This document shows, piece after piece, positions 1-19,255 of a stretch of 20,272 nt of DNA. Numbering within the stretch: position 1 is the first letter of the stretch; every line of letters begins with the position of its first letter. The position numbers were made by a program, and so were the translations under genes. The notes under the pieces were generated by a model that worked only from the letters and a program-made list of their open reading frames with translations, did not search any database and was not told the DNA's origin. The stretch covers positions 1 to 20,272 of IMG/VR virus record IMGVR_UViG_3300032214_000504; one strand, given 5' to 3'. Source of the stretch: a virus.

Positions 1-1394
1 GGAATAACTTCGCTATATGCTATTGTAGTGATGTAATTACCACATAATGTCTCATAATTCTTTTCATTTTTTACCCTATAATATAATTTTGTACCAACAG
101 TACCACTAGCAATAAAATTATCAGCATAATATGTCGAGCCGACAAAATAGTCTGTTTTACCACTATAATAGAAGCTTGTAAATGTATTTCCAGTGCTAAC
201 TTCTAGTGAAAAGAAACCATTAACCTTGTCTGGTGGTGTGGTTACTGTCCATGTGACAACTGGTGTACTAGTATTTAACCCATTTACTGTGTTTATTGCT
301 GGGAAATAAACCATAGTTATGATATCTCCAACAAGTAACGAACCTTCTAATATTATTCTTTTGCTATTTGATATAGATTGGTAATAATCTATACCATTAG
401 CCAATGTTATACCGTTTAACATCACAACAACAACGTTGCCTTGTGAGGGTGGTACTGACGTGTATATTTCGTATTTTTGTGTCGAGGTGTTAAAGTAGAC
501 CAGATTAGAACCTTCTGCGTCTGTCACACCACTGACAATCGGTGCTGATATGTCAATATTGTCACCAATTAAATTGTTACCACCGTCTGACGTATAAATA
601 AATGTTATTATATCATCAGTATATGTTTCACCACTTAAACTTACAACACTAGCACTAAATGTATAATCTAGATTATTTGCCAAAACCAATCCGTTTAAAG
701 TCATAACAAAATCACCAAGAACATTACTAGGAATTACAACTTCCTTTATACCAGCTGGTGGTAATAATGTTGTTTGAATCAATCTGTTTGTTAATGTAGA
801 GTTACTAGTGTTGTTTGTAAATGTAGGTTTTTCAGCTTGTCTTATTGAAACAAAGTAATAATCCAAACTTTTATCATAAATGCCGTATTCAGAACCGCTT
901 ATATAGTTCACGGTATCGATACCTTTACCCAATCTTTTCATGAAATCTGTACAAGCACTAAATTGATAATAACCTTTGATAAGGTAATCACCATCCATTG
1001 TCAAACCACTTGTCGGAACATATTGTGTTGTTTCGTTTGTAGCACTAAATGCTGAATAGCTTAGTATTTCAGATTTATAAACTGGTATTGTGGCGAAACC
1101 ATTTAAACTTTGGTCATATTTGTATATTTGAAAGTTAAAGTTTGCGTTTGTATCTACAAATGAACTTGTGTTTGCTGTAAATTGGAAGGTTAACGGAATC
1201 GTTTGTGTACTAGCAGATATAATGTATGTACCACCAGTTGTTGTACCAGTACAATCTATTTTTGTAGCACCACTAACATTGAATAGTGGGCTGTTAAAAA
1301 CACAAAAATCAGAACTCATATTTACGTTGGTATATGTTCTATTCCTAACGGCAGAATTCTGGTTTTGTATGTATATTCTATCTTGGTATCTCAT
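1..1394 (-). CDS. Tail-fibre-like structural protein, 3' end outside window
   Basis: An open frame starts at ATG 1394-1392 and runs without a stop to the left edge, giving about 464 residues of an incomplete protein. The start overlaps the previous gene's stop as TAATG, which suggests translational coupling. The visible part is rich in Thr, Ser, Asn, Gly and Tyr, with no membrane segment or enzyme motif. Two modules about 94 residues apart, around residues 225-265 and 319-365, share the pattern V-x-LNG-x-x-LAN-x-x-DY followed by a strand ending in D-I-I-T. Similar LNG...DYT modules recur in phage tail fibres, so I infer a fibre or fibre-attachment protein at the distal end of the tail. The true C-terminus, where a receptor-binding tip might be, is not visible. 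It could instead be another baseplate-associated beta-rich protein. Confidence 0.75.
   Translation of the reverse strand, partial: MRYQDRIYIQNQNSAVRNRTYTNVNMSSDFCVFNSPLFNVSGATKIDCTGTTTGGTYIISASTQTIPLTFQFTANTSSFVDTNANFNFQIYKYDQSLNGFATIPVYKSEILSYSAFSATNETTQYVPTSGLTMDGDYLIKGYYQFSACTDFMKRLGKGIDTVNYISGSEYGIYDKSLDYYFVSIRQAEKPTFTNNTSNSTLTNRLIQTTLLPPAGIKEVVIPSNVLGDFVMTLNGLVLANNLDYTFSASVVSLSGETYTDDIITFIYTSDGGNNLIGDNIDISAPIVSGVTDAEGSNLVYFNTSTQKYEIYTSVPPSQGNVVVVMLNGITLANGIDYYQSISNSKRIILEGSLLVGDIITMVYFPAINTVNGLNTSTPVVTWTVTTPPDKVNGFFSLEVSTGNTFTSFYYSGKTDYFVGSTYYADNFIASGTVGTKLYYRVKNEKNYETLCGNYITTIAYSEVI
295..735 (-). repeat. Two tandem LNG/LAN/DY beta modules in the fibre-like protein
   Basis: On the minus strand the encoded segments VMTLNGLVLANNLDY (M at 702-704) and VVMLNGITLANGIDY (M at 420-422) align closely and lie 94 codons apart. 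Each is followed by a strand with D-I-I-T before an aromatic Tyr. The similarity is at the protein level; the DNA has diverged. The boundaries are approximate. Modules of this type are known from phage tail fibres. Confidence 0.55.
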
Positions 1395-1636
1395 TAGTAG
1401 CTTATATCTAACGTTATCGTTGCAATGTTATTTTCATTTTTTAAACCAAATTCCATTGGTTTAAGCAAAGCAGATGTAAATTCTGTTCTAGATAAATTTT
1501 GAAGATATGCGACAAACCCATTAAGATTAATAAAATCTTCTTGTTGTATTTGACCAGAAACACTAGTAACGAATCGAGCATCACCTATTACATGTGTCAA
1601 TATTTCTCCTTCTACTTTTTTTAATAATTGTGGCAT
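1394..1636 (-). CDS. Small hypothetical protein of the tail operon (80 aa)
   Basis: This is a complete 80-residue frame from ATG 1636-1634 to TAA 1396-1394. I do not recognise the family. It has no signal peptide, transmembrane segment or cysteine. Charged residues are spread throughout, and it ends in a beta-like stretch (IATITLDISY). It lies 25 bases after the 1041-residue gene and its stop overlaps the ATG of the fibre-like gene (TAATG), so it is probably translated with both. A small adaptor, chaperone or connector for the next protein is plausible from position alone. The same-strand continuity, the stop-start overlap and the lack of another candidate in the gap support it being a real gene. 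Confidence 0.7.
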   Translation of the reverse strand: MPQLLKKVEGEILTHVIGDARFVTSVSGQIQQEDFINLNGFVAYLQNLSRTEFTSALLKPMEFGLKNENNIATITLDISY

Positions 1637-1661: not shown

Positions 1662-4600
1662 TTACTTCAATCTAATTTCACCATCACTGTCTGATTTTAC
1701 AGAACCCTCAGTAATCGTTACGCTACCAATAAATTCTGAAGAAGCATTCATTTGTTTTAAATAGACACCAGTACATTTTTGAACCTTTGTGTTTGGTTGC
1801 AATGTACCTTCACTACTTATTGTCGTTTTATCAACATCAACCGTTAAATCAAAAGCAATACTTTCAGCAGCATAATCATCACATATGAACAAGCTACCTT
1901 TTTTGTACATAAATTTTTGTTGGTCAAAAAATGTGTTACTATAAATTTTAACACTACCCCATATTGTTGTCGCTGGAACTACTTGTTCTATAATATCTGT
2001 CCAATAATCACCAACCAAACCAGCAAATTGTTCCATTGTCGCATATGTGTATTTTGAACTTTCAGTATCACAATATTTTGTACTATTCAAATATCTATCA
2101 TATAACGCCCTAAGTGTAGGATATGCTGACAATGTTTTTCTATTTTTAGCGTCAATAAGTTCTGACATAATTTGACTTTCAAATTCTTCAACAGTGTCAA
2201 TATTTGAAAGTGGTTCTGTTAATAATTCTGTGAAATCTAAACTTTCACCACCACAATCAACACAGCACGAATCACAGTTAATCAATGTTTCACCCCAAAA
2301 TGGTTTTATTAAATAACTAGAGACTGGAAGATACGCTGAAGTATCTTTCATTAATTCTATAAACGAATTTAGTTCATCTAATGAATTTTGTGTAAAACTA
2401 TCAGTTACGTTTGTTATCGTACCTTGAACATCAGAAACGTCTGATATGTGATAAAAACTTAAACCACTTACACTACATGTAACCCAAAGTGCACCAATTG
2501 GTGTTGCTTTAGTAAACGCTTTGAAAACCTTCCCACAATTACATTCTGTTGTTGGGAAACATGCTTCATAATTATCAACACTAGCTTCAATACAAGTGCT
2601 AAAAAAATCAACACAATCTTGAACAATCACTGAACAATCAGCAACTGTTTGTATTGTTGGTAGCGTTACAACATTTCCACTATAATCAGTAACAGTTATT
2701 CCACTACATGGTATTGTTTCACCAGTCAATAAACATGGATTGTCAACAACATAGCACCAAACATCGTGTTCAACAGCACTAGCCAAATTGATATCTAAAT
2801 CAATTTCTTTTGTGTTTATAACTAATCTTTCGTCATTTACGTTGTACTCTGTTTGTCTAATTCTATTGTCACCTAGATTATTTTTTATGTCAAAAGTTCT
2901 ACTAACTGGTGTTGTATTTTTAATCCATGATTTTTTATTATCAATAATTCTTTCCAATTCAAAACCAGGTGATTTTTCAACTCTAATAGTTTTTGCCTCA
3001 CCGTCAATACAAGACTTATTTAATTTTAAATTATCAACTAAAACACATATATTTGAACATGTGTTGTTTATTTTTATTGATAAAGTTATTTTTTTATCTT
3101 CTATTTTTGATATAATATCTGGGTCTGTTATTTCAGTTGTGTAATTTAACCATTTAGAAGCTAAAATAGTTTGAGCTAAAGAATCTCTAAACTTTTTTAA
3201 ATCATCTACACTATTCGTAAAATTAGATTGGGTGAATAATGACTCCAATATGTTGTCTTTAACTGGCACACAAGATTGAACGTTACAATAGTAATCGCTA
3301 GGACCTTGTGTTTCACAGTTACTAGGTACTGGCTCTAAAGACCCACTCAATTCTGTTTTTTGGTATTTAATAACAGTACAACCACTAGTAAAAGTTTCTG
3401 TTTGCTTTGGTTGTCCGCAAATATAAAAACCACTATCTGTTGCGTGTTGTGTTAAATATGTGTATAGATTACCGCTGCCAATAGATGGAAATAGATTAAA
3501 CTCATATACAGTTGTTAAAGCACCGTTTGACTCGATGACATCGACACTCATTGATACATCTAGATTCTCTAAAACTTGTGTTGGTGTTGAACAAACAGCT
3601 GTACTTGTTTCAGTATCACCTTTTAAATTTTGTATTTCTGTTTCTAACGCTGTTGTTTTATCATCACATTCCTTAACCAATTTTGTTAATATTTCAATTT
3701 CTTTTTTTAATCGAGTTTTAAAACCAAAAGGTGTTGTACATTGAAACGCAAATTCTAAATTACCGTTTTGAACAGATTCATAACTTAAAAGTATCATTTC
3801 TATCACATTATCACATGTGTAAGATGTTGGGTCACCGTCTAAAAATCTCTGATATTTATCTAACCCTAATAAGTTTTGTAACACAGTTAAACCACCATTT
3901 GTTTCGTTTATACAAATAGTAACACTAGAATTTGGGTTTACCGCTGTTGAGCTACTACTTAACGCTGGGAAACCAAAAGGTGCTGTAGAACCAAAGCCAG
4001 TATTACCAAACGCTTTTATCGCACTTCTAGTAGTTACTACTTGTGGTGCGGCTTGTGTAACACCAACAGCTTCAGCGTATTTTAAATAAAGTTCGATATC
4101 AACGTTATCACAAACCATTGAATAATAACTCTTTTCATATTCTGAAATAGTTATTTCTAATTTGCTACTTATGCTTTCGCACTCTGCTTGTAGATTTAAA
4201 AGTTCTGATTCTAATTTTTTAATTTGGTCTTGCGTTCTTGGGTCGACATTTACAGATATCGTTGGGTTTAAAATATCAGATAAATTCTCACACTCTAGTT
4301 TAAAAAGATAGTTAAAATCAACAACCAATTTACATTCTTTCTCACCGTTTTCGGTGTTGAAAAGACTACCATCGTTACCATCTGGGTTTAAAACTATCTT
4401 AAAAGTATCTATAAGACAATCAGTACCACTAGACGAAGTTTTCCATCTACATTTTTGTTTATTGTCATCCCAATATATATCACTGCTAGTCACATTTGGA
4501 AAATATTGACTTGCAGATGTTATTAATTTTGGTATCATTGTTTTACAACAATAACTACCCAATTCTATTGGTTGGTTTTGTCCGTTGTATACCAAAAAAA

Positions 4601-4787
4601 CATCAATGTCACCATTTTGATTTAAAACTACGGTTTGTTGTGATGGTGTGTAACCATTCAACGTACCATATTGTTGGAAATACGCAGAACTATTAGTTGC
4701 GTCATCGTTTTTGATTGAATTAGCAATGTTTCTTAACAATACTGTACATATTTCATTACCAAGTGATGTAGTATTAGATTCTGCCAT
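1662..4787 (-). CDS. Large cysteine-rich tail-associated protein (1041 aa)
   Basis: This complete 1041-residue frame has an ATG preceded by an A-rich stretch (AAAAATAAAAA) and no Shine-Dalgarno motif. I do not recognise the family. By my count it has about 39 cysteines, very high for a phage structural protein, including CC, CNC and CDSCC-x-x-C clusters. Two predicted coiled-coil stretches lie near residues 186-222 and 355-392. Between them are two related blocks, each beginning CDNV (first at residue 226) and each followed later by PFGF. Residues 234-242 read YLKYAEAVG, identical to the end of the preceding 909-residue protein. No signal peptide or membrane segment is seen. Its place between a gpI-like tail protein and a fibre-like protein suggests a tail-tip or fibre-linking structural role; this is inference. 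The cysteines could bind metal or form disulfides after release. Confidence 0.8.
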   Translation of the reverse strand: MAESNTTSLGNEICTVLLRNIANSIKNDDATNSSAYFQQYGTLNGYTPSQQTVVLNQNGDIDVFLVYNGQNQPIELGSYCCKTMIPKLITSASQYFPNVTSSDIYWDDNKQKCRWKTSSSGTDCLIDTFKIVLNPDGNDGSLFNTENGEKECKLVVDFNYLFKLECENLSDILNPTISVNVDPRTQDQIKKLESELLNLQAECESISSKLEITISEYEKSYYSMVCDNVDIELYLKYAEAVGVTQAAPQVVTTRSAIKAFGNTGFGSTAPFGFPALSSSSTAVNPNSSVTICINETNGGLTVLQNLLGLDKYQRFLDGDPTSYTCDNVIEMILLSYESVQNGNLEFAFQCTTPFGFKTRLKKEIEILTKLVKECDDKTTALETEIQNLKGDTETSTAVCSTPTQVLENLDVSMSVDVIESNGALTTVYEFNLFPSIGSGNLYTYLTQHATDSGFYICGQPKQTETFTSGCTVIKYQKTELSGSLEPVPSNCETQGPSDYYCNVQSCVPVKDNILESLFTQSNFTNSVDDLKKFRDSLAQTILASKWLNYTTEITDPDIISKIEDKKITLSIKINNTCSNICVLVDNLKLNKSCIDGEAKTIRVEKSPGFELERIIDNKKSWIKNTTPVSRTFDIKNNLGDNRIRQTEYNVNDERLVINTKEIDLDINLASAVEHDVWCYVVDNPCLLTGETIPCSGITVTDYSGNVVTLPTIQTVADCSVIVQDCVDFFSTCIEASVDNYEACFPTTECNCGKVFKAFTKATPIGALWVTCSVSGLSFYHISDVSDVQGTITNVTDSFTQNSLDELNSFIELMKDTSAYLPVSSYLIKPFWGETLINCDSCCVDCGGESLDFTELLTEPLSNIDTVEEFESQIMSELIDAKNRKTLSAYPTLRALYDRYLNSTKYCDTESSKYTYATMEQFAGLVGDYWTDIIEQVVPATTIWGSVKIYSNTFFDQQKFMYKKGSLFICDDYAAESIAFDLTVDVDKTTISSEGTLQPNTKVQKCTGVYLKQMNASSEFIGSVTITEGSVKSDSDGEIRLK
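4062..4088 (-). repeat. Shared motif YLKYAEAVG, internal copy
   Basis: Codons 234-242 of the 1041-residue protein encode YLKYAEAVG, followed by V-TQ. The same nine residues, followed by L-TQ, occur at codons 892-900 of the neighbouring protein. The codons differ at several third positions, so the residues appear conserved rather than recently copied. Confidence 0.85.
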
Positions 4788-4840: not shown

Positions 4841-7570
4841 TTATATAGCTTTAGTTGGTGATTGAGTTAGTCCTACTGCTTCAGCATACTTCAAATATGT
4901 TTCAAATGTTAATTCACAACAACCGATTTTAAAATCACCAACAACTATTTCAACACCATTAAAATTTTTTGCTTTAAATTGATAATAGTTATATAAATCA
5001 GCATATAAACTTGAATCATCAATTAATTCTTGTGTTAATTTACAACCAATACCAACTTCACCAGTGTATGGGTCTGTTATGTTTGGAACCGCCACCGTTT
5101 TTTGTGGACAAGCCGAAGCATCTGATACAACAACCTTGTTTATACCAGAACCGTATAATGTTATAAAGTTTAAGTATGCTGTTGCTGTTGGTGAACCTTG
5201 TGGTAAATATATTGGTTCTTTAGCGATTGTCCAGTTACATGTTACATTACAACCGCATTTATCTGTTGTACAACAAACAAAACCACTACTTACTAATTTT
5301 GGGTTTGAAGGTATTGCACCTTGATAAATTGAATCGGCATAAGTAGATTTTCCACCTAAATAACTACAACATTCTTTATCAATAAATGCTGTTTTATTTG
5401 TCACACCATTAATAAGATTTCCGTTGATATCGTATTTATTAATCTCAAAAACGTATAAACCTAATTGTGGGTTAGTTTTTGGTGGGTTTGCCAATGTTTC
5501 ACATGGTTTTACTGGTTTTGGGTCTGTTTTTTTAATACAAATACTCAAAGACTCATCTTCACCTTCACATGGGCACCCACATGGTGTTAAAATATCCTCT
5601 GGCATAGGGTCTTTTATTATTTCTGTTTCGTAAACAATGCAATCACCTAAATCTGAACCATCGTTATTTACCACGTCAACATATGTGTTTCCAGTGTAAT
5701 TTGTTATATCACCTAGTGAATAATTTAAGAATAAATTTCTTTCAGACGTAACAGCTGTTGACGCTGTGACCGTTACTGGTATAAAATTTTGAATTAAGTT
5801 TCTAAATTGGTTTATATATTTCGAACCACCATCATAAGGACCAACGTGTGGATTGTTTCCACTTGTTATGTCTATTGTTGCACCAGTACCACCAGTTTCT
5901 CTATACCAAAGACCATAATTTTGGAAATACATGTCTGGTGTGTCTGGTAATGGTCTAGGATAACCTTCTAAATCTACTGGGTATGACAACACATCGCTAT
6001 CTAAACCGTTTAATTCAAGTACTTGTACAAATAAATCAACATCGATAGGGCCTTTAGCTCTATAAATGTATTCGTTAAATGTAACTAACCCCATTGGTGT
6101 TCCAATAAAGTTTAAAAGGAATTCTATTGATTTTCTAGCACCTTTAGATTTCCAAATCCATGGTGAGTTCAAAATTATTCTTCTCCATAGCTCAATATCT
6201 GCTTGTGCTGCTGTTAAACCAACTGGTTGACCAGCGTAATTTGAACTATCGGTTTCAACATAATTAGCCAAAAGATTATTCTCAATAACAGAAGAAACCA
6301 AATCCCAACCTAACACTCTTGCTAAATCTTTTAAATACGCATCTGGGATATTGTCTTGTCTATTGTATGTTACAACATGTGCAAAAGAAATACCTTGTAT
6401 GAACTGGTTAATATCATCAAAAGACCTACCGTATATTTTTAATGTCTTATTAACTTTTTGACCAGTTGTTGTGTCTTGATGAACTTCAGCCAAACGTACT
6501 GGTGTTGTATCAAAAGCTGATATTGACTCAGAAACCAAAAACCTAGTCATCAAATCTGTTTCGTTTAAATCATAGTTTGTAGCTAAATCAAACAGTTCTG
6601 TTGCGTAATTTATATATTCTGTAGTGTCAAAATCTATATTATAACCGTCAGTTACTGGCCATTTAACAGATTTGGATGAATACATTAAAATACCGCTTTG
6701 TGTTCTAACTGGGAAGTTAAATGTAGCTGTGTATAATGGTAGTGTGTACCTATTCAACAAATATTCATGCAATCCATTTAAACTATTGAAAAATGTATTT
6801 TCAATAGTTTTATTAGGTTTAATATGGTAATATAAATAAGAACCAGTTGTTGCACCAGAAAAAACATCACCTTTTGCTTTAAAATAAACGTAATCAGCTT
6901 GTTCGAATGTTGAACCAGTGAATCCTATAATATCATATTCTGTATTATTTATCAATATAGCGTATGATTTATAGTTTACTGTTAAATTTCTCAAATCATT
7001 TTCTTGATTAAAAGAATCCGAAACAGTACCATTGGCCAAGTAGTTTATCTTAAATTTGTTGTTAATAAGTGTAGTGTTTAATTTAAAACTAGACTCATTT
7101 GTTATATAATCGTAAGTATAATCTTCAAAAGTAAAGCCATTAATAAACTGACTATCGTAAAAAGCTGTTGGTGTAACGTATAACGCAGCTGGCCATTTTG
7201 TTATTATTTCTTCTAATGTTACTCTAAAGTACTCAGTCATTGAACCAAATAATGCGTAGTTTTTTAAATTAGATTCGTCTAAATTTAAAAACACACTTGC
7301 ATTATTCTCTAAAAGTTTTACTGATTGCTCAATTGTTAAATCTAATTTATCTAGTGTAAAAAAGTCAGAAAATTTACCAGTAATATAATTTTTGTCTAAT
7401 TTTGGGTCCAAGTTAGTTGTAATAGCAAAATTACCCATTGTAAACAATGGGGTACCACCATCACTTGCCAGTTGTAACCCTACTAAATCTGGACTAAAAT
7501 CTCTGTATTCAATGTTTCCATCGTATGATATTTTCTGTGAATACCCAGCTACTTTTATCTTTTTTGCCAT
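4841..7570 (-). CDS. Tail/baseplate protein with gpI-like segment and Cys-rich C-terminus (909 aa)
   Basis: This complete 909-residue frame starts 7 bases after the previous stop. The N-terminal part (about residues 1-400) is Tyr, Asn and Thr rich and looks beta-structured. Residues about 410-495 carry a helical segment with ARVLGWDL and, further on, WRRIILNSPWIWKSKGARKS leading into EFLLNFIGTP. This resembles the tail-protein-I (P2 gpI-like) pattern, in which an R-R...S-P-W...K-G-x-R/T-x-x-I helix occurs in baseplate proteins of contractile tails. Residues about 640-890 contain roughly 17 cysteines, with clusters such as CGCPC, CC and CCTTDKCGC. The last 18 residues contain YLKYAEAVG, shared with the next gene product. 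I infer a baseplate protein that attaches fibres or peripheral tail proteins. The gpI assignment rests on motif resemblance only. Confidence 0.75.
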   Translation of the reverse strand: MAKKIKVAGYSQKISYDGNIEYRDFSPDLVGLQLASDGGTPLFTMGNFAITTNLDPKLDKNYITGKFSDFFTLDKLDLTIEQSVKLLENNASVFLNLDESNLKNYALFGSMTEYFRVTLEEIITKWPAALYVTPTAFYDSQFINGFTFEDYTYDYITNESSFKLNTTLINNKFKINYLANGTVSDSFNQENDLRNLTVNYKSYAILINNTEYDIIGFTGSTFEQADYVYFKAKGDVFSGATTGSYLYYHIKPNKTIENTFFNSLNGLHEYLLNRYTLPLYTATFNFPVRTQSGILMYSSKSVKWPVTDGYNIDFDTTEYINYATELFDLATNYDLNETDLMTRFLVSESISAFDTTPVRLAEVHQDTTTGQKVNKTLKIYGRSFDDINQFIQGISFAHVVTYNRQDNIPDAYLKDLARVLGWDLVSSVIENNLLANYVETDSSNYAGQPVGLTAAQADIELWRRIILNSPWIWKSKGARKSIEFLLNFIGTPMGLVTFNEYIYRAKGPIDVDLFVQVLELNGLDSDVLSYPVDLEGYPRPLPDTPDMYFQNYGLWYRETGGTGATIDITSGNNPHVGPYDGGSKYINQFRNLIQNFIPVTVTASTAVTSERNLFLNYSLGDITNYTGNTYVDVVNNDGSDLGDCIVYETEIIKDPMPEDILTPCGCPCEGEDESLSICIKKTDPKPVKPCETLANPPKTNPQLGLYVFEINKYDINGNLINGVTNKTAFIDKECCSYLGGKSTYADSIYQGAIPSNPKLVSSGFVCCTTDKCGCNVTCNWTIAKEPIYLPQGSPTATAYLNFITLYGSGINKVVVSDASACPQKTVAVPNITDPYTGEVGIGCKLTQELIDDSSLYADLYNYYQFKAKNFNGVEIVVGDFKIGCCELTFETYLKYAEAVGLTQSPTKAI
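4871..4897 (-). repeat. Shared motif YLKYAEAVG, C-terminal copy
   Basis: Codons 892-900 of the 909-residue protein encode YLKYAEAVG, ten residues before the C-terminal end. It follows a CC pair (CCELTFET), just as the internal copy in the next protein follows a cysteine (CDNVDIEL). A terminal position would suit a docking peptide. Confidence 0.85.
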
Positions 7571-12081: not shown

Positions 12082-15000
12082 TTAAGTACTAGAAGGTGTG
12101 ATGATTGTACAACCAACGTTATCACTAACACTAACTGTTTGAATCACTGATTTAAGTGAGTTTACAGCTGGTGCTGTTGAATATGGTGCTAAACCACCGT
12201 TAATCACTAGTGATTTTGTGTTAGGTGTTACACCAGTATTATATGTCCAATAAGCACTTAATGCTACTGTAGGCATTGTTATTGTTGGTAACGTTCCACT
12301 AGCGACACAACCTTTATTATCAGTTATTGAATAAGTTATAACCGCACTAGATGATATAGACGGCATTGTTGCGTTTATCAATTGTTGGTTACTTGTTATT
12401 GATACAGTGTTTGTCGGGCCACCGTTTACTTGATAAACAAACGTGTATGGAAGACGTGCTGTTGAACCAGCTTGTAAATGGCTGACGTTAAATTTAAACG
12501 AAACAAGATTTGGATTACATTGTTGTGCGTTATTTATACCACTAGTATTTATTGCCAACGTATTTACTGGTAATTCTATTGAAGCACTATTTATCGATAA
12601 ATAATTGCTAAAACATAAACCATCTGGTGATTTCATTCTTATTTTAACACCACTATTTAAACCACCACTAGGTTTAGGTATTGTAACAAACATAAGTGTT
12701 GTCGCATTTACATATGTTAATATGACGTTATTCCAAATAAAATCTGGTGTACCACCAGTATTATCATCAACATTATATTGTATGTTAATAGGGCCAGCTG
12801 TTGCACCAGCAGTTATATAAAACGGTACAATATAGTTGTTAGGGTCACACTGTTTGTTTAACTGAGCAATTGTTGCCATTGAAGCTACCATTTGAACATT
12901 TAAACTAGGAACCGTTACAGATAATGTATCTGTTGTTCCATAATTATCAACTGTTGTAATCGTATATGTACCTCTAATCGCATCGTTTACTGACAAGCCA
13001 TTTGTAGATGGGAAACCAGCTGGGCCAGTTATTGTATTTGTGTAAGGCCCTTGACCACCAGTAAGACCTATGTTGAATGCACCATCTGCGGATTCCCAAC
13101 ATGTTGTAGGTGACTGAGTTAAAACACTTAAAACAACTGGTGTCGGTCCGTTTAAAACCAAATCAGTAATTGTAATTGTTGTTATACCATCACTAACCAA
13201 TAACTTATAACCAAAATGTGGTGGGGTTAGACCATCGGAACCAGTATCAGCCCCAAGCCCAGTTATCACCAATGGTGATGTAGAAAACGATGTTACTGGT
13301 TTTGCAACAGAACCATTGCTTCTTAACAATTGATAAGTCCAAACACCAGTACCGCCACCTACGCTAGTTATTGTTATTTCACCGTCTTGAACGGAAGCAG
13401 AACTACATAGTTTTGTTACACTAGCTGTTGCATATAATGCTGGTGGTCCATCAACTGTAATGTTTTGTGTTACAACGTTTCCATTTGCATCAATAACTTC
13501 TATTGTGTATGTACCAACAGCTAAACCATTAATTGTAACACTTTGTGCTGCTGGTGGTAACGGTACAGTACCAGTATTATTGTAACCACTTGGACCGCTT
13601 ATCGTGTAAGTAAACGGTGCCGTACCAGATACTATGTTAAACGTTATTGAACCAGTTGGGTTTGTACTAGTTGCAGATTGAGATGTTGCCAAAACATTGA
13701 ATTCTTTTTCAGCGACTGGTAAACATCTAGTAAAAAATCTTTGGTTAAGTTTATCTAACGCTCCTTTTCCTGGTAATGGACCAAAATAGAAGAAATACGA
13801 ATGTTTAGGTTGTGTAAATGCAGTATCGCTACCACTAGGATAACCCCTAAAACTAGAATAATCAACACCATTTTGAGTGTTATTTGAAAAAGAATAAACA
13901 CCTATCCCACCATTTATTATGTTAAAACTAGTCGTAAACGGTACCAAGGTAAAAGCGTTTTGATTTGGTATTTTGTTTAATTCATAATACACATCTCTAA
14001 ACCATATACCGCCATTTTCATCAATATCTTTTAGACCTATGTTGTAATCAGCGGCAATTGGTGCTCCATTTGGGTAGGTTGCTGATGGTGCCCCAAATTG
14101 TAATTGGTCTAAATCAACACCAAACTCAGATAAATGTCTTATGTTTAAACATTGGCTGTAATCAGAATGCAATCCAATACAATCAACTTCAAAGAATAAT
14201 CCTTGTAAGTTACCCCCAGTACCTATCATACCAGTTGTCTCAACTGTTAAGTTATCGTCAGTTAATTCAACTACGATTGGTGGTATTTTATATGTTGTTG
14301 GGACTAGTAGTTGCTGTACCTTTGGTATTCCTTGCCAGTCACAATCAAATACTGACCCTAAGCATATAATATCAGTAGCAAATAATTTTGCGGTTGCGTC
14401 ATGTAAAGAGGCAGCATAAAAGAATTCTTCATTTATCTTTTTGCCATTCAAGAAAGTATCTACTTTTTTAATTAAACCCTCTCTAACACCACCTCTACTT
14501 TTCAATTCATCTTGTGAATCATCACCATTCGTAGTCACATTATTATCAGAATTATAGCAACTATCAAACAAATAATTTGTTCTACAGTTATTGTCTGGCA
14601 CATTATTTTTATTGCCATCAACACCGCCTTGACTGAAGAAATCGTCACAATCATATTCACAAAATCTTTCTGATTTTCTACGTTTTCTTTTATATTTTAA
14701 AAGATAACCATATAATGTTCCATTTACCCAATCATTGTAAAAATCAAATTGGAATATACCTAAGCTCTCAGCCAAAATAGCTGCAACACATTTATCTAAA
14801 CCAGCGGCATCACCAAACTTATTTGGGTGACCAAAATTATCGCCAGGGTAAAAACTAGGGTAATATCCAGTGTTTGTTTTGACCGCCTCAAATCCTTTGT
14901 CGCTACTCTTACAGCCAGGTGCGTACAAACCAGTACCAGTATCAGCATCAAAAGGACATTGTACCCAAATACAAGGTATGTAAGCTAAAATGTCGCTACA

Positions 15001-16587
15001 ATTACAACAACCATTACCAATACACCAATTACATACATTTACACTGACAAATGGTATCTTATTAATGAATTTACCTATGCTAAATATTATGTTACATATC
15101 ACTTTTAGAATAGCATTCAAAACGCCTATGATTATGTTTACTAATTTAATTAAAAACGCATTCATAATATAAATTAAAAATGCAATTATTTTTATGATTA
15201 AACAAATGATGAAAAATATAGGGCTAAAATCAGTATTAACTTTATTAAAAGGAAACGTTGTTTTGTCACCAGCACAACCATCGACATCTTTTATAGCTGT
15301 AAACGCTCTTGTTTTTTTATTGTCAGATGTTTGATATCTAGGTATAAAATTGGTTACACTGTATATTTTGTTCCAATATAAACTTCTAAAGCTCGTCTTT
15401 TTTGTTGTTTCGTTAAAAGTATAATCTATCTCGGAAACAGAGTTAGGATTATTTGGGACTAGGTATTTAGCTCTTGTTCTAAGCCTACCTTCACCGCCAG
15501 TATTATCCATACCAATTTTGAACCTAACACTTGCTCTAGTTGGTATACCTTTTGTTTCATCATCAGATGGTATTAGATTACCGAACTCATCAGTTACAAC
15601 GTAATCTAGGTTCATAGGTATTTGATAAGCCCATGTACCGTCTTCATCTATTAGCCTACCGCCATCTACATCGAACTGTTCGACACCACCATCAATGGTT
15701 TCTCTAAGCATTTCGATAGAACCTTCACCAGTTACTTGTTCACATAACTGACCTAGTTTTTTTCTAGGTCTACATCTTTTGTTTATACTATTTTTTTCTG
15801 AGTCACCAAAAATACTACCCATGAACATAGCGCATGGTTTGATATTGTAATTCATATCAATATCAGCTCTAGTGATTCCAATTTCACAATTATCGGTACT
15901 ACCCCAGAAAGGTTGTACGTTTACACCATAGTTTGTTGATTTGATTTGAACTAATTTGTCTAAATTGGTACCGCCCTTATATTTTGTAGGGCTATCAAAA
16001 AATTTAAGTGGTGTTCCTTGACTTATTAAGTCGTATGGTCTTTGAGATGCAATACCGATATCTGAAATATCAGCATCAACATGTACAGTATATGTTCCTA
16101 GTGGTACACCAAAAATCATAAAATCACCAGCACTGTTTGTTGTTGTGGTGAATTTATAGTATTTGCAATAGACACCTAATAATTCATCATTATCTAATAT
16201 CTCTCTTTTATTTGGAAAAGTACCTACTGGTGTGAAACATTCATTATTGGTTTCACTTGATTTGGGTAATAGATTATATCTAATACCATCGCTATCTTTA
16301 TCAGAAACAATAGAATAAGGATATAACCCCTTTATTTGTGGGTCATTTTTATCAACATCATCAATTGGTATAAAAACACTAACTCTAGCGTTTGGTAACC
16401 CAAAGCCACTGTTGATTATTACTCTACCTACAATTACACCATAATCAGAGCAGAAGTTTCTATACGCCTCTTCTTGCGTGATTTTCATTGAAAGTACTTC
16501 GATGAAATCAAAATCTTGGTCTAATTTTACTTTAAGGTATTTGTCTGAACCATTTGGTGTTGTCCTTATTCTTACTGTTTCTGACAT
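12082..16587 (-). CDS. Giant multidomain tail protein with membrane-like core and SprB-like repeats (1501 aa)
   Basis: This is the largest gene in the window, intact, starting 5 bases after the small membrane protein. Residues 48-75 (YGVIVGRVI, then PNARVSVF) and 143-173 (TNSAGDFMIFGVPLGTYTVH) together resemble a carboxypeptidase-regulatory-like beta sandwich with a long loop inserted. Residues 457-514 are strongly hydrophobic with regularly spaced lysines. They are followed by a cysteine cluster at 519, 522, 527, 528, 530, 539 and 544. More cysteines lie near 640-680. Residues about 962-1501 form about six Ig-like repeats, the first clearly SprB-like (GSITF, GTAPFTYTISG, LAVGTYTIEVIDANG). 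I infer a virion protein with a host-facing repeat region and a segment able to enter or span a membrane, possibly at the tail tip or tube. Its exact place in the particle is unknown. It is not a typical T4 protein. Confidence 0.8.
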   Translation of the reverse strand: MSETVRIRTTPNGSDKYLKVKLDQDFDFIEVLSMKITQEEAYRNFCSDYGVIVGRVIINSGFGLPNARVSVFIPIDDVDKNDPQIKGLYPYSIVSDKDSDGIRYNLLPKSSETNNECFTPVGTFPNKREILDNDELLGVYCKYYKFTTTTNSAGDFMIFGVPLGTYTVHVDADISDIGIASQRPYDLISQGTPLKFFDSPTKYKGGTNLDKLVQIKSTNYGVNVQPFWGSTDNCEIGITRADIDMNYNIKPCAMFMGSIFGDSEKNSINKRCRPRKKLGQLCEQVTGEGSIEMLRETIDGGVEQFDVDGGRLIDEDGTWAYQIPMNLDYVVTDEFGNLIPSDDETKGIPTRASVRFKIGMDNTGGEGRLRTRAKYLVPNNPNSVSEIDYTFNETTKKTSFRSLYWNKIYSVTNFIPRYQTSDNKKTRAFTAIKDVDGCAGDKTTFPFNKVNTDFSPIFFIICLIIKIIAFLIYIMNAFLIKLVNIIIGVLNAILKVICNIIFSIGKFINKIPFVSVNVCNWCIGNGCCNCSDILAYIPCIWVQCPFDADTGTGLYAPGCKSSDKGFEAVKTNTGYYPSFYPGDNFGHPNKFGDAAGLDKCVAAILAESLGIFQFDFYNDWVNGTLYGYLLKYKRKRRKSERFCEYDCDDFFSQGGVDGNKNNVPDNNCRTNYLFDSCYNSDNNVTTNGDDSQDELKSRGGVREGLIKKVDTFLNGKKINEEFFYAASLHDATAKLFATDIICLGSVFDCDWQGIPKVQQLLVPTTYKIPPIVVELTDDNLTVETTGMIGTGGNLQGLFFEVDCIGLHSDYSQCLNIRHLSEFGVDLDQLQFGAPSATYPNGAPIAADYNIGLKDIDENGGIWFRDVYYELNKIPNQNAFTLVPFTTSFNIINGGIGVYSFSNNTQNGVDYSSFRGYPSGSDTAFTQPKHSYFFYFGPLPGKGALDKLNQRFFTRCLPVAEKEFNVLATSQSATSTNPTGSITFNIVSGTAPFTYTISGPSGYNNTGTVPLPPAAQSVTINGLAVGTYTIEVIDANGNVVTQNITVDGPPALYATASVTKLCSSASVQDGEITITSVGGGTGVWTYQLLRSNGSVAKPVTSFSTSPLVITGLGADTGSDGLTPPHFGYKLLVSDGITTITITDLVLNGPTPVVLSVLTQSPTTCWESADGAFNIGLTGGQGPYTNTITGPAGFPSTNGLSVNDAIRGTYTITTVDNYGTTDTLSVTVPSLNVQMVASMATIAQLNKQCDPNNYIVPFYITAGATAGPINIQYNVDDNTGGTPDFIWNNVILTYVNATTLMFVTIPKPSGGLNSGVKIRMKSPDGLCFSNYLSINSASIELPVNTLAINTSGINNAQQCNPNLVSFKFNVSHLQAGSTARLPYTFVYQVNGGPTNTVSITSNQQLINATMPSISSSAVITYSITDNKGCVASGTLPTITMPTVALSAYWTYNTGVTPNTKSLVINGGLAPYSTAPAVNSLKSVIQTVSVSDNVGCTIITPSST
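12085..13704 (-). repeat. Tandem SprB-like / Ig-like repeat region (about six units)
   Basis: Codons about 962-1501 of the giant protein encode consecutive units of roughly 70-110 residues. Units one to three show the SprB-repeat pattern most clearly: G-x-I/F strand, G-T/G-x-x-P-Y/F-T, then G-L/A-x-x-G-T-Y-T-I, then D-x-x-G. Units four and five begin near a Cys-x-Pro-Asn and are longer and weaker matches. The last unit ends in VSVSDNVGCTI near the C-terminus. SprB repeats are known from Bacteroidota adhesins. The DNA copies are well diverged. Confidence 0.6.
15043..15222 (-). other. Hydrophobic segment plus Cys cluster start inside the giant protein
   Basis: These codons (about 456-515) encode FFIICLIIKIIAFLIYIMNA and continue through two more aliphatic stretches to NKIPFV, with Lys about every 7-12 residues. 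The length is enough for two or three membrane helices or long amphipathic helices. The codons immediately after encode CNWC and CCNC. Confidence 0.75.
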
Positions 16588-16592
16588 AAATT

Positions 16593-16976
16593 TTATTTGC
16601 TTTTAGGTGTTATATCTTCGACATCAACCATTATCAAATCATCTTCAGTTAAACTTTCATAATCGTCATCTTCGTCATCATAATCATCATATTCATCATC
16701 TTTTATCAATGATTTAAACTTTTTTGTTTTTGTTAATCTGGCAAACAAGCCTCTAACATCAACTTCTTTGGTTAAAACCAATGTGTTAAACATGAACCAA
16801 ACAATGGCTATGTTTATCAATGGTAATAATAAAAGACCGACAAAAAAACCAATTAATTTGGCTGTGTAGCTTAAAAAAGCAGATAAATTCTTATGTCTAG
16901 GGTTTATCCCAGAATCATTATTGTTTGATTTAAAGTTTGGATTAGGTGTCCCACCAGTTTTACAATTGCATCCCAT
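16593..16976 (-). CDS. Small membrane protein with acidic C-terminal tail (127 aa)
   Basis: This complete 127-residue frame starts after the A-rich sequence AACAAAGAAAA. The N-terminus is MGCNCKTGGTPNPNF, with two close cysteines and a polar Asn/Gly-rich linker. Residues 41-67 form one long hydrophobic stretch (LIGFFVGLLLLPLINIAIVW and on), and the preceding residues 31-40 are mildly hydrophobic. A basic patch follows (RLTKTKKFK), then an extremely acidic tail at residues 93-122 (for example DDEYDDYDDEDDDYE). By the positive-inside rule the basic patch would stay in the cytoplasm. The gene lies inside the baseplate cluster, 5 bases before the giant protein, which also has a hydrophobic core. 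A membrane-anchored assembly factor or partner of that protein is possible. A holin is less likely, given the single main segment and the acidic tail, but is not excluded. Confidence 0.75.
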   Translation of the reverse strand: MGCNCKTGGTPNPNFKSNNNDSGINPRHKNLSAFLSYTAKLIGFFVGLLLLPLINIAIVWFMFNTLVLTKEVDVRGLFARLTKTKKFKSLIKDDEYDDYDDEDDDYESLTEDDLIMVDVEDITPKSK

Positions 16977-17041: not shown

Positions 17042-18859
17042 TTATTGTCTAACCCTAACTAGAATATCTTTTGTTGGGTATTTTATCTCATACATAGAAG
17101 TCGGTTCACCGTACAAAGTATTATCTTCTGATATGTCTATTTGTCTTGTTGGTACGTCTATATATGGTTGTGAAGTTTCATTTAAACTATAACCACCACC
17201 AACTTTATTAAAAATTCTCAACCCGACTAAATTCAATACACCACCAATATTATTTATTGTTTCAATTAAATTTGAAAGGTAGACGCTTTGCCCCATTTCA
17301 AATTTGTTGACATCAAAATAGTTTTTAACTTCATTTATAACTTGTGAAATTACTTGTGATTGTGGTGCTTTTTTATCGATATATAAATCAATTTCAAAAG
17401 ATAAATTAATGATTCTCCCGTCAGTGATTTGAACATAATCATTAAGCATTCTAAAATCAGCCAAATAATTACTTATATTTTCTTTTAATGTAGTTGTTGT
17501 TTGGTTTGTTAACGAACCGTTTTGGTCCAAACTTAAAACATACATTTTTATCTTATTTTGTTCTTCAAAAATACCATTTCTAAATGGTGCTCCAAATTTT
17601 CCAGGTATTTGAGCAATTTTTGTTTGGTAATCTTTGATTGTCACAGCTCTGTTTTGAGATGAAAAGTTGTATCTAACCATGTTTCTAACTTCTTCAACAC
17701 TTGGTGAATCTTTACCACCGATAGCTGGGAATAAGTTATTAACTTTTAATGATTTTTTAACATTTTGATTTATACTACTATCTGGACCATTTACGCTAAT
17801 GTTTACAATACCAGTACTTTTAATAGTATTAGGACCTAAATTGCTATCAGCACCGCCACCTACTCTATATTTTATAAACATAGTTGTATTAGCTGTTGGT
17901 GTTACACCCAAAGACATATTGTTTATAAAATTACCTATTTGATTGACCAATGCTTTGTTAGTATCAAAATCACATAAGCTACTTATGTCTTGAGTACCAG
18001 CACCAAATGTTACTTTTGTAAAACCTAAATCTGTATATTCTCTTATAAATTTTTTACTAACAGAAATCCATTTTCCTGGTTTTACACCAGAATTATCACT
18101 AGTTCTAGTGTTGTCCTCTATAAAAACTTTATCTTCAGCCAACGCATCAACTTCAAACCATCTGTTATTTATATTTAAAAATTCATCTATAGTAGGTTCG
18201 CCAATGTATGATGTTCCTGGTAATGTTATAATGGATTCTACAGATAGCACATTATCGTCTGGTAGTATAACCTCTAGAAATGGTCTAACGTCAGATGTTG
18301 TTATAACTCTTTTAAGTACTTTGGTAAAACCATTTGTAACCATTTCTCTTTTTGTTAGAGTATAGTTAATCAATGTTCCATTTGCGTTGAAATTTGGTAA
18401 AATTATCCTATTAGGTATACCACCAATTGTAAACGGACTAGAAAAATCAACATCACTAACGAGTTCAAATACTTTACCGCTGCCAGTAACTTGTGAACCA
18501 GCTTTAATAACTGGCGCATAAGATACGTCAAACGTATCGCCAAAAACTGGTACAGTAACACTTAAATCAACGATAGTCGCACTGGCTCTTTTTCCTGGGA
18601 TTTTTAAACCGAATGTTCTAGCCATTGATAACAATGACTTTCTTTCTTTTGCATAATCAATTTGAGTTTCAGCAAACATTCTATCTGTGTTGTATGATAA
18701 CATATCACCAACCGCAGCGTTTAATTCTAAAAGCATCATACCAACTGATGCGTCATTGAAATCATTGAAGATATCTGGATAATATTGTCTTACGTAATTA
18801 ACTAAGTCTGTTCTTATATCCGCAAAATTTCGTGATGAATAATTAACTTCTTGTGCCAT
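17042..18859 (-). CDS. Baseplate wedge protein, gp6 / baseplate-J-like (605 aa)
   Basis: This 605-residue protein is close in length to T4 gp6 (about 660). Its N-terminus, YSSRNFADIRTDLVNYVRQYYPD followed by FNDFNDASVGMMLLELNA and then GDMLSYNTD, is the characteristic opening of gp6-like wedge proteins in T4-related phages. A later region with YNFSSQNRAVTIKDYQT and the C-terminal wedge strands (GGVLNLVGLRIFN) fit the baseplate-J fold. In T4, gp6 forms the inner ring of the baseplate and joins neighbouring wedges, working with gp25 and gp53. Here it follows the gp25-like gene by 9 bases (ACAAAAAAA before the ATG), matching the usual pairing of these two functions. There are no membrane segments and few cysteines. 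This is one of the most secure assignments in the window. Confidence 0.92.
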   Translation of the reverse strand: MAQEVNYSSRNFADIRTDLVNYVRQYYPDIFNDFNDASVGMMLLELNAAVGDMLSYNTDRMFAETQIDYAKERKSLLSMARTFGLKIPGKRASATIVDLSVTVPVFGDTFDVSYAPVIKAGSQVTGSGKVFELVSDVDFSSPFTIGGIPNRIILPNFNANGTLINYTLTKREMVTNGFTKVLKRVITTSDVRPFLEVILPDDNVLSVESIITLPGTSYIGEPTIDEFLNINNRWFEVDALAEDKVFIEDNTRTSDNSGVKPGKWISVSKKFIREYTDLGFTKVTFGAGTQDISSLCDFDTNKALVNQIGNFINNMSLGVTPTANTTMFIKYRVGGGADSNLGPNTIKSTGIVNISVNGPDSSINQNVKKSLKVNNLFPAIGGKDSPSVEEVRNMVRYNFSSQNRAVTIKDYQTKIAQIPGKFGAPFRNGIFEEQNKIKMYVLSLDQNGSLTNQTTTTLKENISNYLADFRMLNDYVQITDGRIINLSFEIDLYIDKKAPQSQVISQVINEVKNYFDVNKFEMGQSVYLSNLIETINNIGGVLNLVGLRIFNKVGGGYSLNETSQPYIDVPTRQIDISEDNTLYGEPTSMYEIKYPTKDILVRVRQ

Positions 18860-18868
18860 TTTTTTGTT

Positions 18869-19255
18869 TTATATTTTAATAACTACTACATCTGATGATG
18901 AAAACACATCGTCAGTTATTACATAGCTTATTGTTACAACAGCTGCATATTCACTTTCTGGTGATTGCTCTATTATAATCTCGTTTAATTGTAATTTAGG
19001 TAAGAATTTTTTTACGACAGTTGTTATCTCATCTTTAATACCTTGAAGTGTCAAAGCATCGTTTGGTTCAAAGATAAACCTAAGCAAGTCAGTACCAAAA
19101 TCTGGGTTGTAAAGTCTTTGCCCTCTTCTGGTTAAAATTAAGTGTAAAAGGTCAGCTTTTATCGCTTGATTGTCTTGTTCCGTTAAATCCAAGAAAAAAC
19201 CCTTTTTACTATCTTTGAAAGGATAGTTTATGTTAATATATTTTCCGTTTGCCAT
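18869..19255 (-). CDS. Baseplate wedge protein, gp25 / GpW-like family (128 aa)
   Basis: The protein has 128 residues; T4 gp25 has 132. The diagnostic segment is ILTRRGQRLYNPDFGTDLLR followed by FIFEPND, the conserved G-x-R/x-x-x-P-x-FG...L-F-E-P pattern of the gp25-like family. The N-terminus (YININYPFKDSKKGFFLDLTEQD) and the alternating beta strands at the C-terminus also fit. In contractile tails this protein forms the wedge core where the sheath begins to polymerise. It is the first gene after the nrd terminator and probably the first of the late unit. The gp6-like gene follows 9 bases later. Older annotations call this family lysozyme-like, but no lysozyme active site is expected. Confidence 0.93.
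   Translation of the reverse strand: MANGKYININYPFKDSKKGFFLDLTEQDNQAIKADLLHLILTRRGQRLYNPDFGTDLLRFIFEPNDALTLQGIKDEITTVVKKFLPKLQLNEIIIEQSPESEYAAVVTISYVITDDVFSSSDVVVIKI

Follow-up and report, generated by a model that had tools for sequence, protein, structure and literature searches.

GIANT, a candidate baseplate-anchored host-surface adhesin with a long apolar helix from large contractile-tailed phages

A 1501-residue protein, referred to by the working name GIANT, is encoded on the minus strand at positions 12082–16587 of an IMG/VR virus record, which was analysed over a stretch of 20,272 bases (the window). GIANT represents a widely conserved, previously undescribed family, and its gene lies within a phage baseplate operon. 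Its sequence features point to a baseplate-anchored host-surface adhesin as its probable role. The whole reading, a baseplate-anchored adhesin of large Bacteroidota phages with a membrane-inserting helix, is given a probability of about 0.5; if the adhesin role is granted, the modelled helix might equally well be membrane-active or not.

A conserved gene among baseplate genes

The GIANT frame is open from its ATG start and intact over 1501 codons, as originally predicted. A search of IMG/VR gave at least 160 candidate stretches with relatives, and the best 80 of 160 were fetched and used here; a homologue is present in every syntenic contig. The identity of these relatives to GIANT varies from 22 to 97% according to the region, and in most full-length relatives the alignment extends from residue 1 into the C-terminal region. 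Comparison with a 93% identical homologue revealed 88, 49 and 379 differences at codon positions 1, 2 and 3, with a dN of 0.04 and a dS of 0.53. The relatives in 160 stretches and this distribution over codon positions thus rule out a chance open reading frame. At one locus (L071:995–5668), GIANT is broken into three overlapping frames of 610, 561 and 406 residues, as a result of frameshifts, sequencing error or true decay.

The gene order RNR–gp25–gp6–TM127–GIANT–601–282–293–307–909–1041, where the numbers are protein lengths, is constant over about 50 contigs. Two baseplate wedge genes lie upstream of GIANT on the same minus strand. One encodes a gp25-like protein (18869–19255; Pfam GPW_gp25, 8.5e-13) and the other a gp6-like protein of the Baseplate_J type (17042–18859; 25.3 bits in Pfam for a cut-off of 21.1, and PHROG 219 with an E-value of 3e-22), which bears out the suspected baseplate operon. 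The genomes of seven out of eight large relatives also match the Phage_sheath_1 profile (PF04984), three of them above the curated cut-off; another sheath family, PF17481, gave no match. Being encoded together with gp25, gp6 and a sheath protein, GIANT belongs to a contractile-tailed phage (myovirus) context. At the other end of the order, the RNR frame of one locus (L066) reaches 1760 residues, as compared with about 720–790 at other loci, possibly through an intein or a fusion.

The 909-residue protein encoded further downstream (4841–7570, minus strand) aligns with a 1337-residue protein located in the gp7 slot of the Microcystis phage Mel-JY01 (hhalign, 5.9e-9). It is a probable gp7/P2-I-like wedge protein, to judge from a motif and from this alignment; PHROG and Pfam gave no gp7 match in either Mel-JY01 or the Flavobacterium phage immuto. 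It contains 17 cysteines, and its 1041-residue neighbour (1662–4787, minus strand) contains 39 (3.7%). Both proteins carry the motif YLKYAEAVG(L/V)TQ, at the end of the former and around residue 230 of the latter, and the motif also closes the 909-residue protein in four searched relatives (L002, L016, L047 and L050); it is possibly a shared docking tag. Past the conserved block, two frames of 464 and 80 residues (3–1636, minus strand) lack relatives among the loci fetched and probably encode a variable tail fibre and its helper.

Between gp6 and GIANT lies the gene of a 127-residue membrane protein, TM127 (16593–16976, minus strand), which is present in 78 loci and adjoins GIANT in essentially every one. 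TM127 begins with MGCNCK, C3 and C5 being kept in 60 of 60 sequences. This MxCxC start is followed by one membrane segment with a Pro kink, and then by an acidic linker that leads to a conserved VEDIT tail. It has no PHROG match and no significant Pfam match. In the window's structural module, segments of membrane grade are confined to GIANT and TM127. The most divergent relative comes from a rumen metagenome-assembled genome (MAG); its TM127 slot is occupied by an 87-residue protein with a MACNC start and a membrane segment, which the TM127 profile does not detect; a 100-residue protein with a hydrophobic segment is encoded there as well.

Four regions of the GIANT protein

The four very different regions expected in GIANT all proved to be real. 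The monomer was modelled with AlphaFold in two pieces, residues 1–960 (pLDDT 83, pTM 0.82) and the C-terminal part. The models show a distinct helix and a chain of immunoglobulin (Ig)-like domains, and not one continuous fibre fold.

The N-terminal part (residues 1–450; 15238–16587, minus strand) is strongly conserved. Its mean pairwise identity of 0.64–0.71 is comparable to that of gp6 (0.70), and a dN of 0.009 was obtained for a dS of 0.45 in the comparison with locus L002. A putative docking function at the baseplate is assigned to this part. It includes a putative beta sandwich of transthyretin/CarboxypepD_reg-like type, interrupted by a long insertion (residues 49–173; 16069–16443, minus strand), as suggested by its modelled strands and by profile and fold matches. 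The CarboxypepD-like domain of the original prediction holds as a fold hint, with CarboxypepD_reg (PF13620) matches at E ≤ 0.01 in 33 of 44 relatives (best 8.5e-5), but not as a curated family, the score over GIANT residues 146–173 being 22.7 bits for a gathering score of 32.3. As to a transthyretin-like sandwich of seven strands, Foldseek retrieved weak matches to CnaB pilins, transthyretin-like folds and 3qec (TMt 0.22–0.45).

The hydrophobic stretch that follows is drawn in the 1–960 model as one unbroken helix of 54 residues (456–509; 15061–15222, minus strand), about 80 Å long, which exceeds a single bilayer crossing. Its Kyte–Doolittle (KD) hydrophobicity over 19 residues reaches a maximum of 3.03 at residue 457. 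The mean over 45 residues is 2.40, a value attained by none of 5000 shuffles (highest 1.89), and the core is kept without counter-example in every full-length relative inspected, in full agreement with the hydrophobic core first noticed. Across 51 relatives, a polar stripe one residue wide runs along the helix with a period of about 3.67 residues, through positions 466, 469, 473, 476/477, 481, 484, 488, 491/492, 495, 498/499, 502 and 506. N476 is invariant and position 484 is Asn in 92% of these sequences. The hydrophobic moment accordingly peaks at 96–100 degrees, and about three quarters of the circumference is made of Ile, Leu, Val and Phe in all relatives.

The cysteine cluster that had been noted is equally constant, since C544, C600, C643, C647, C668, C749, C803 and C955 are kept in essentially all 51 aligned rows. 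The first five belong to a Cys-rich segment (residues 519–677; 14557–15033, minus strand). This segment also contains a Ca-loop-like motif of the DxNxNGxxDN type at residues 656–668 (VDGNKNNVPDNNC; 14584–14622, minus strand), found in its fuller form DxNxNGxxDNxC in 24 of the 51 relatives, which may bind an ion. A moderately conserved mixed domain (residues 720–960; 13708–14430, minus strand), delimited by conservation and by the model, then leads to the C-terminal arm.

Co-variation of cysteines was analysed over 210 pairs on a tree built without the Cys columns. C282 and C438 were lost together on the same three branches, and three shared events each were counted for the columns C1053–C1138, C1357–C1493 and C1247–C1427, the first of these being cysteines of the relatives that are absent from the window protein. 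These four pairs co-vary with P-values from 6e-6 to 6e-5, which are approximate and assume independent branches. Among the controls, four sets (G, P, Y and F; 780 pairs) gave no value below 1e-4, and Asn gave one. The co-variation suggests that the pairs form disulfides or share ligands; the test reaches varying cysteines only, and several other conserved ones never vary. Because no signal peptide is apparent at the GIANT N-terminus (MSETVRIRTTPNG...), any disulfides would form only after release.

The C-terminal arm (residues 961–1501; 12085–13707, minus strand) consists of about five to six Ig-like domains of the SprB/GhpA type and varies in length. A scan of residues 940–1501 gave one match to the SprB repeat (PF13573) at 30.8 bits for a cut-off of 28, and the scan of full-length GIANT gave 23.8 bits, under this cut-off. 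SprB matches were obtained in 39 of 40 relatives (best E-value 2.8e-18). AlphaFold builds the C-terminal piece of 540 residues as an all-beta chain with a pLDDT of 89.7, and its best PDB match in Foldseek is the neck of the Aureispira adhesin GhpA (E 1e-12). The SprB-like nature assigned to the C-terminus is confirmed by these data. The arm is also the fastest-evolving part of the protein, with a mean identity of 0.25–0.33 as compared with the values of the N-terminal part given above. The combination of Bacteroidota surface modules with a membrane-grade helix in a single protein of a baseplate operon is thereby substantiated.

Proposed role and competing explanations

In the proposed mechanism, the N-terminal 450 residues or so would dock on the gp25/gp6 wedge, since their conservation equals that of gp6 and the genes are strictly adjacent. 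The apolar helix and the Cys-braced middle would form a stem, steadied outside the cell by disulfides and possibly by calcium, from which the SprB/GhpA-like Ig chain would extend and bind the host surface. The helix would probably be shielded in the virion, perhaps bundled with its own copies or with TM127. Attachment or contraction would then expose it for insertion in the host membrane, where it may steady or open the envelope at the tail tip. Entry of the helix into a membrane appears plausible, and the ever-adjacent membrane protein with its MxCxC start plausibly backs insertion. The original suggestion of a tail-tip device that touches the host surface and may enter a membrane is partly supported; within the baseplate, GIANT might sit at the tip or at the rim.

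The helix could also be simply a buried bundle. The main competing explanation keeps the same adhesin and makes the helix purely structural: copies of GIANT, or GIANT and TM127, would bundle with the Asn stripe as a specificity layer, without any contact with a membrane. Such a bundle would account for a continuous 54-residue helix that outspans the bilayer, as well as for the Asn ladder 476/484/491, whose spacing is typical of helix bundles; the pTM of 0.82 also indicates that the overall arrangement of the 1–960 model is predicted with some confidence. However, an apolar surface covering about three quarters of the circumference exceeds what a bundle needs, and the constant partner is itself of membrane type. 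This explanation is considered rather unlikely, while being the strongest of the alternatives.

A bolder version of the membrane-inserting adhesin is doubtful at this stage. GIANT and TM127 would constitute a two-component, disulfide-braced insertion machine, in which the Ig arms grip the host and the 80 Å helices, with their polar stripe turned inwards, form or gate a pore together with the TM127 helices. If true, this would be an entry device that has not been described for T4-like tails.

TM127 resembles a single-pass tether, with its CxC, membrane segment, acidic linker and VEDIT tail, and its gene is placed between wedge genes. Conceivably, TM127 and GIANT together hold the nascent baseplate at the inner membrane of the host, and act in morphogenesis and not in entry. 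This appears improbable, as it leaves unexplained both the receptor-binding-like evolution of the SprB-like arms and the paired cysteines. Exported surface proteins of Bacteroidota commonly carry SprB and CarboxypepD modules, which would suit a protein that the phage makes and the infected host displays on its surface, for adhesion or superinfection exclusion. The lack of an apparent signal peptide, the position of GIANT locked among baseplate wedge genes in all contigs and an N-terminus constrained like gp6 make this location outside the virion very unlikely. Finally, GIANT is a large protein encoded directly downstream of gp6, as gp7 follows gp6 in T4, but its identification as the gp7 counterpart is rejected, since it aligns with no gp7-slot protein, the 909-residue protein being the one that matches that of Mel-JY01, and no wedge protein is found among its 50 best Foldseek PDB matches.

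Relation to known systems

Searches by sequence, PHROG, Pfam and Foldseek gave no named T4 counterpart of GIANT, as anticipated, and no homologue of described function turned up. PHROGs contain no match to GIANT, and PDB searches by sequence and profile with residues 1–960 gave nothing meaningful. Of the T4 gp25–gp6–gp7 wedge set, gp25 and gp6 have homologues that are adjacent here too, whereas no GIANT or TM127 counterpart was detected in T4 by the searches run. The phages immuto and Mel-JY01 possess a related gp25–gp6 pair followed by other genes, without GIANT.

No family member was found in cultured or annotated phages by tblastn with three divergent queries, nor by profile searches of immuto, Mel-JY01, LR756508 and LR756502, and we know of no cultured phage carrying GIANT. 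LR756502, a 642-kb uncultured phage, was rejected as a member because its sole match (31.6%) covers query residues 920–1117 only and lies in a separate protein of 1675 residues (L086:6752–11776). The latter looks secreted, with a signal-like N-terminus, and has only SprB-like repeats in common with GIANT. Among predicted structures, the sole strong BFVD match comes from Myoviridae sp. ctPuP5, with an uncharacterised protein piece of 994 residues (A0A8S5LA66) that matches GIANT 1–960 over its full length (TM 0.70–0.72, 33% identity, E 7e-82). It is evidently a member of the family, with no function described, and presumably comes from gut material.

Bacterial genomes gave homologues in one of 396 Bacteroidota genomes, the rumen MAG, where the neighbours are of phage type. 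In this Paludibacteraceae MAG (G001; loci L087 and L088), relatives of GIANT occur as three fragments, each on its own contig, reflecting either the binning of several phages or a single broken copy. The SprB/GhpA-like modules and this MAG suggest that the hosts are Bacteroidota. Membership in the clade of the lake bS21 phages (PMC9723584) was not established, bS21 being found in only 1 of 13 large relatives.

The grappling-hook adhesin GhpA of Aureispira (9flp and others) resembles the GIANT arm as a Bacteroidota adhesive Ig chain. It differs in being a host cell-surface protein and not a phage protein, and it shares the Ig chain only; its superposition on the arm is that of generic Ig strings (TM 0.28).

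The nearest functional model, by analogy, is the megatron (g15) of RcGTA and roseophage R4C. This large baseplate protein has several domains, with parts that bind the host and a helix proposed to penetrate the outer membrane, and its partner hub contains an iron-sulfur cluster with four Cys (PMC7296036, PMC10276861). The megatron differs by its N-terminal iris of short helices, its gp27/hub-type central domain and its siphophage-like tail, whereas the GIANT helix is central. GIANT was not retained as a member of the megatron family, given this position of its helix and the lack of any megatron/gpJ-type match by PDB sequence or among the 50 best PDB fold matches.

Little has been described of host recognition and envelope crossing by contractile phages of Bacteroidota. 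GIANT provides a concrete, testable candidate for these steps, combining an anchor, a membrane-grade helix, host-style adhesin domains and a membrane partner. Many large phages conserve it, and its relatives extend to gut and rumen material; it also adds phage tails to host adhesion as a setting for Ig chains of the SprB/GhpA-like type.
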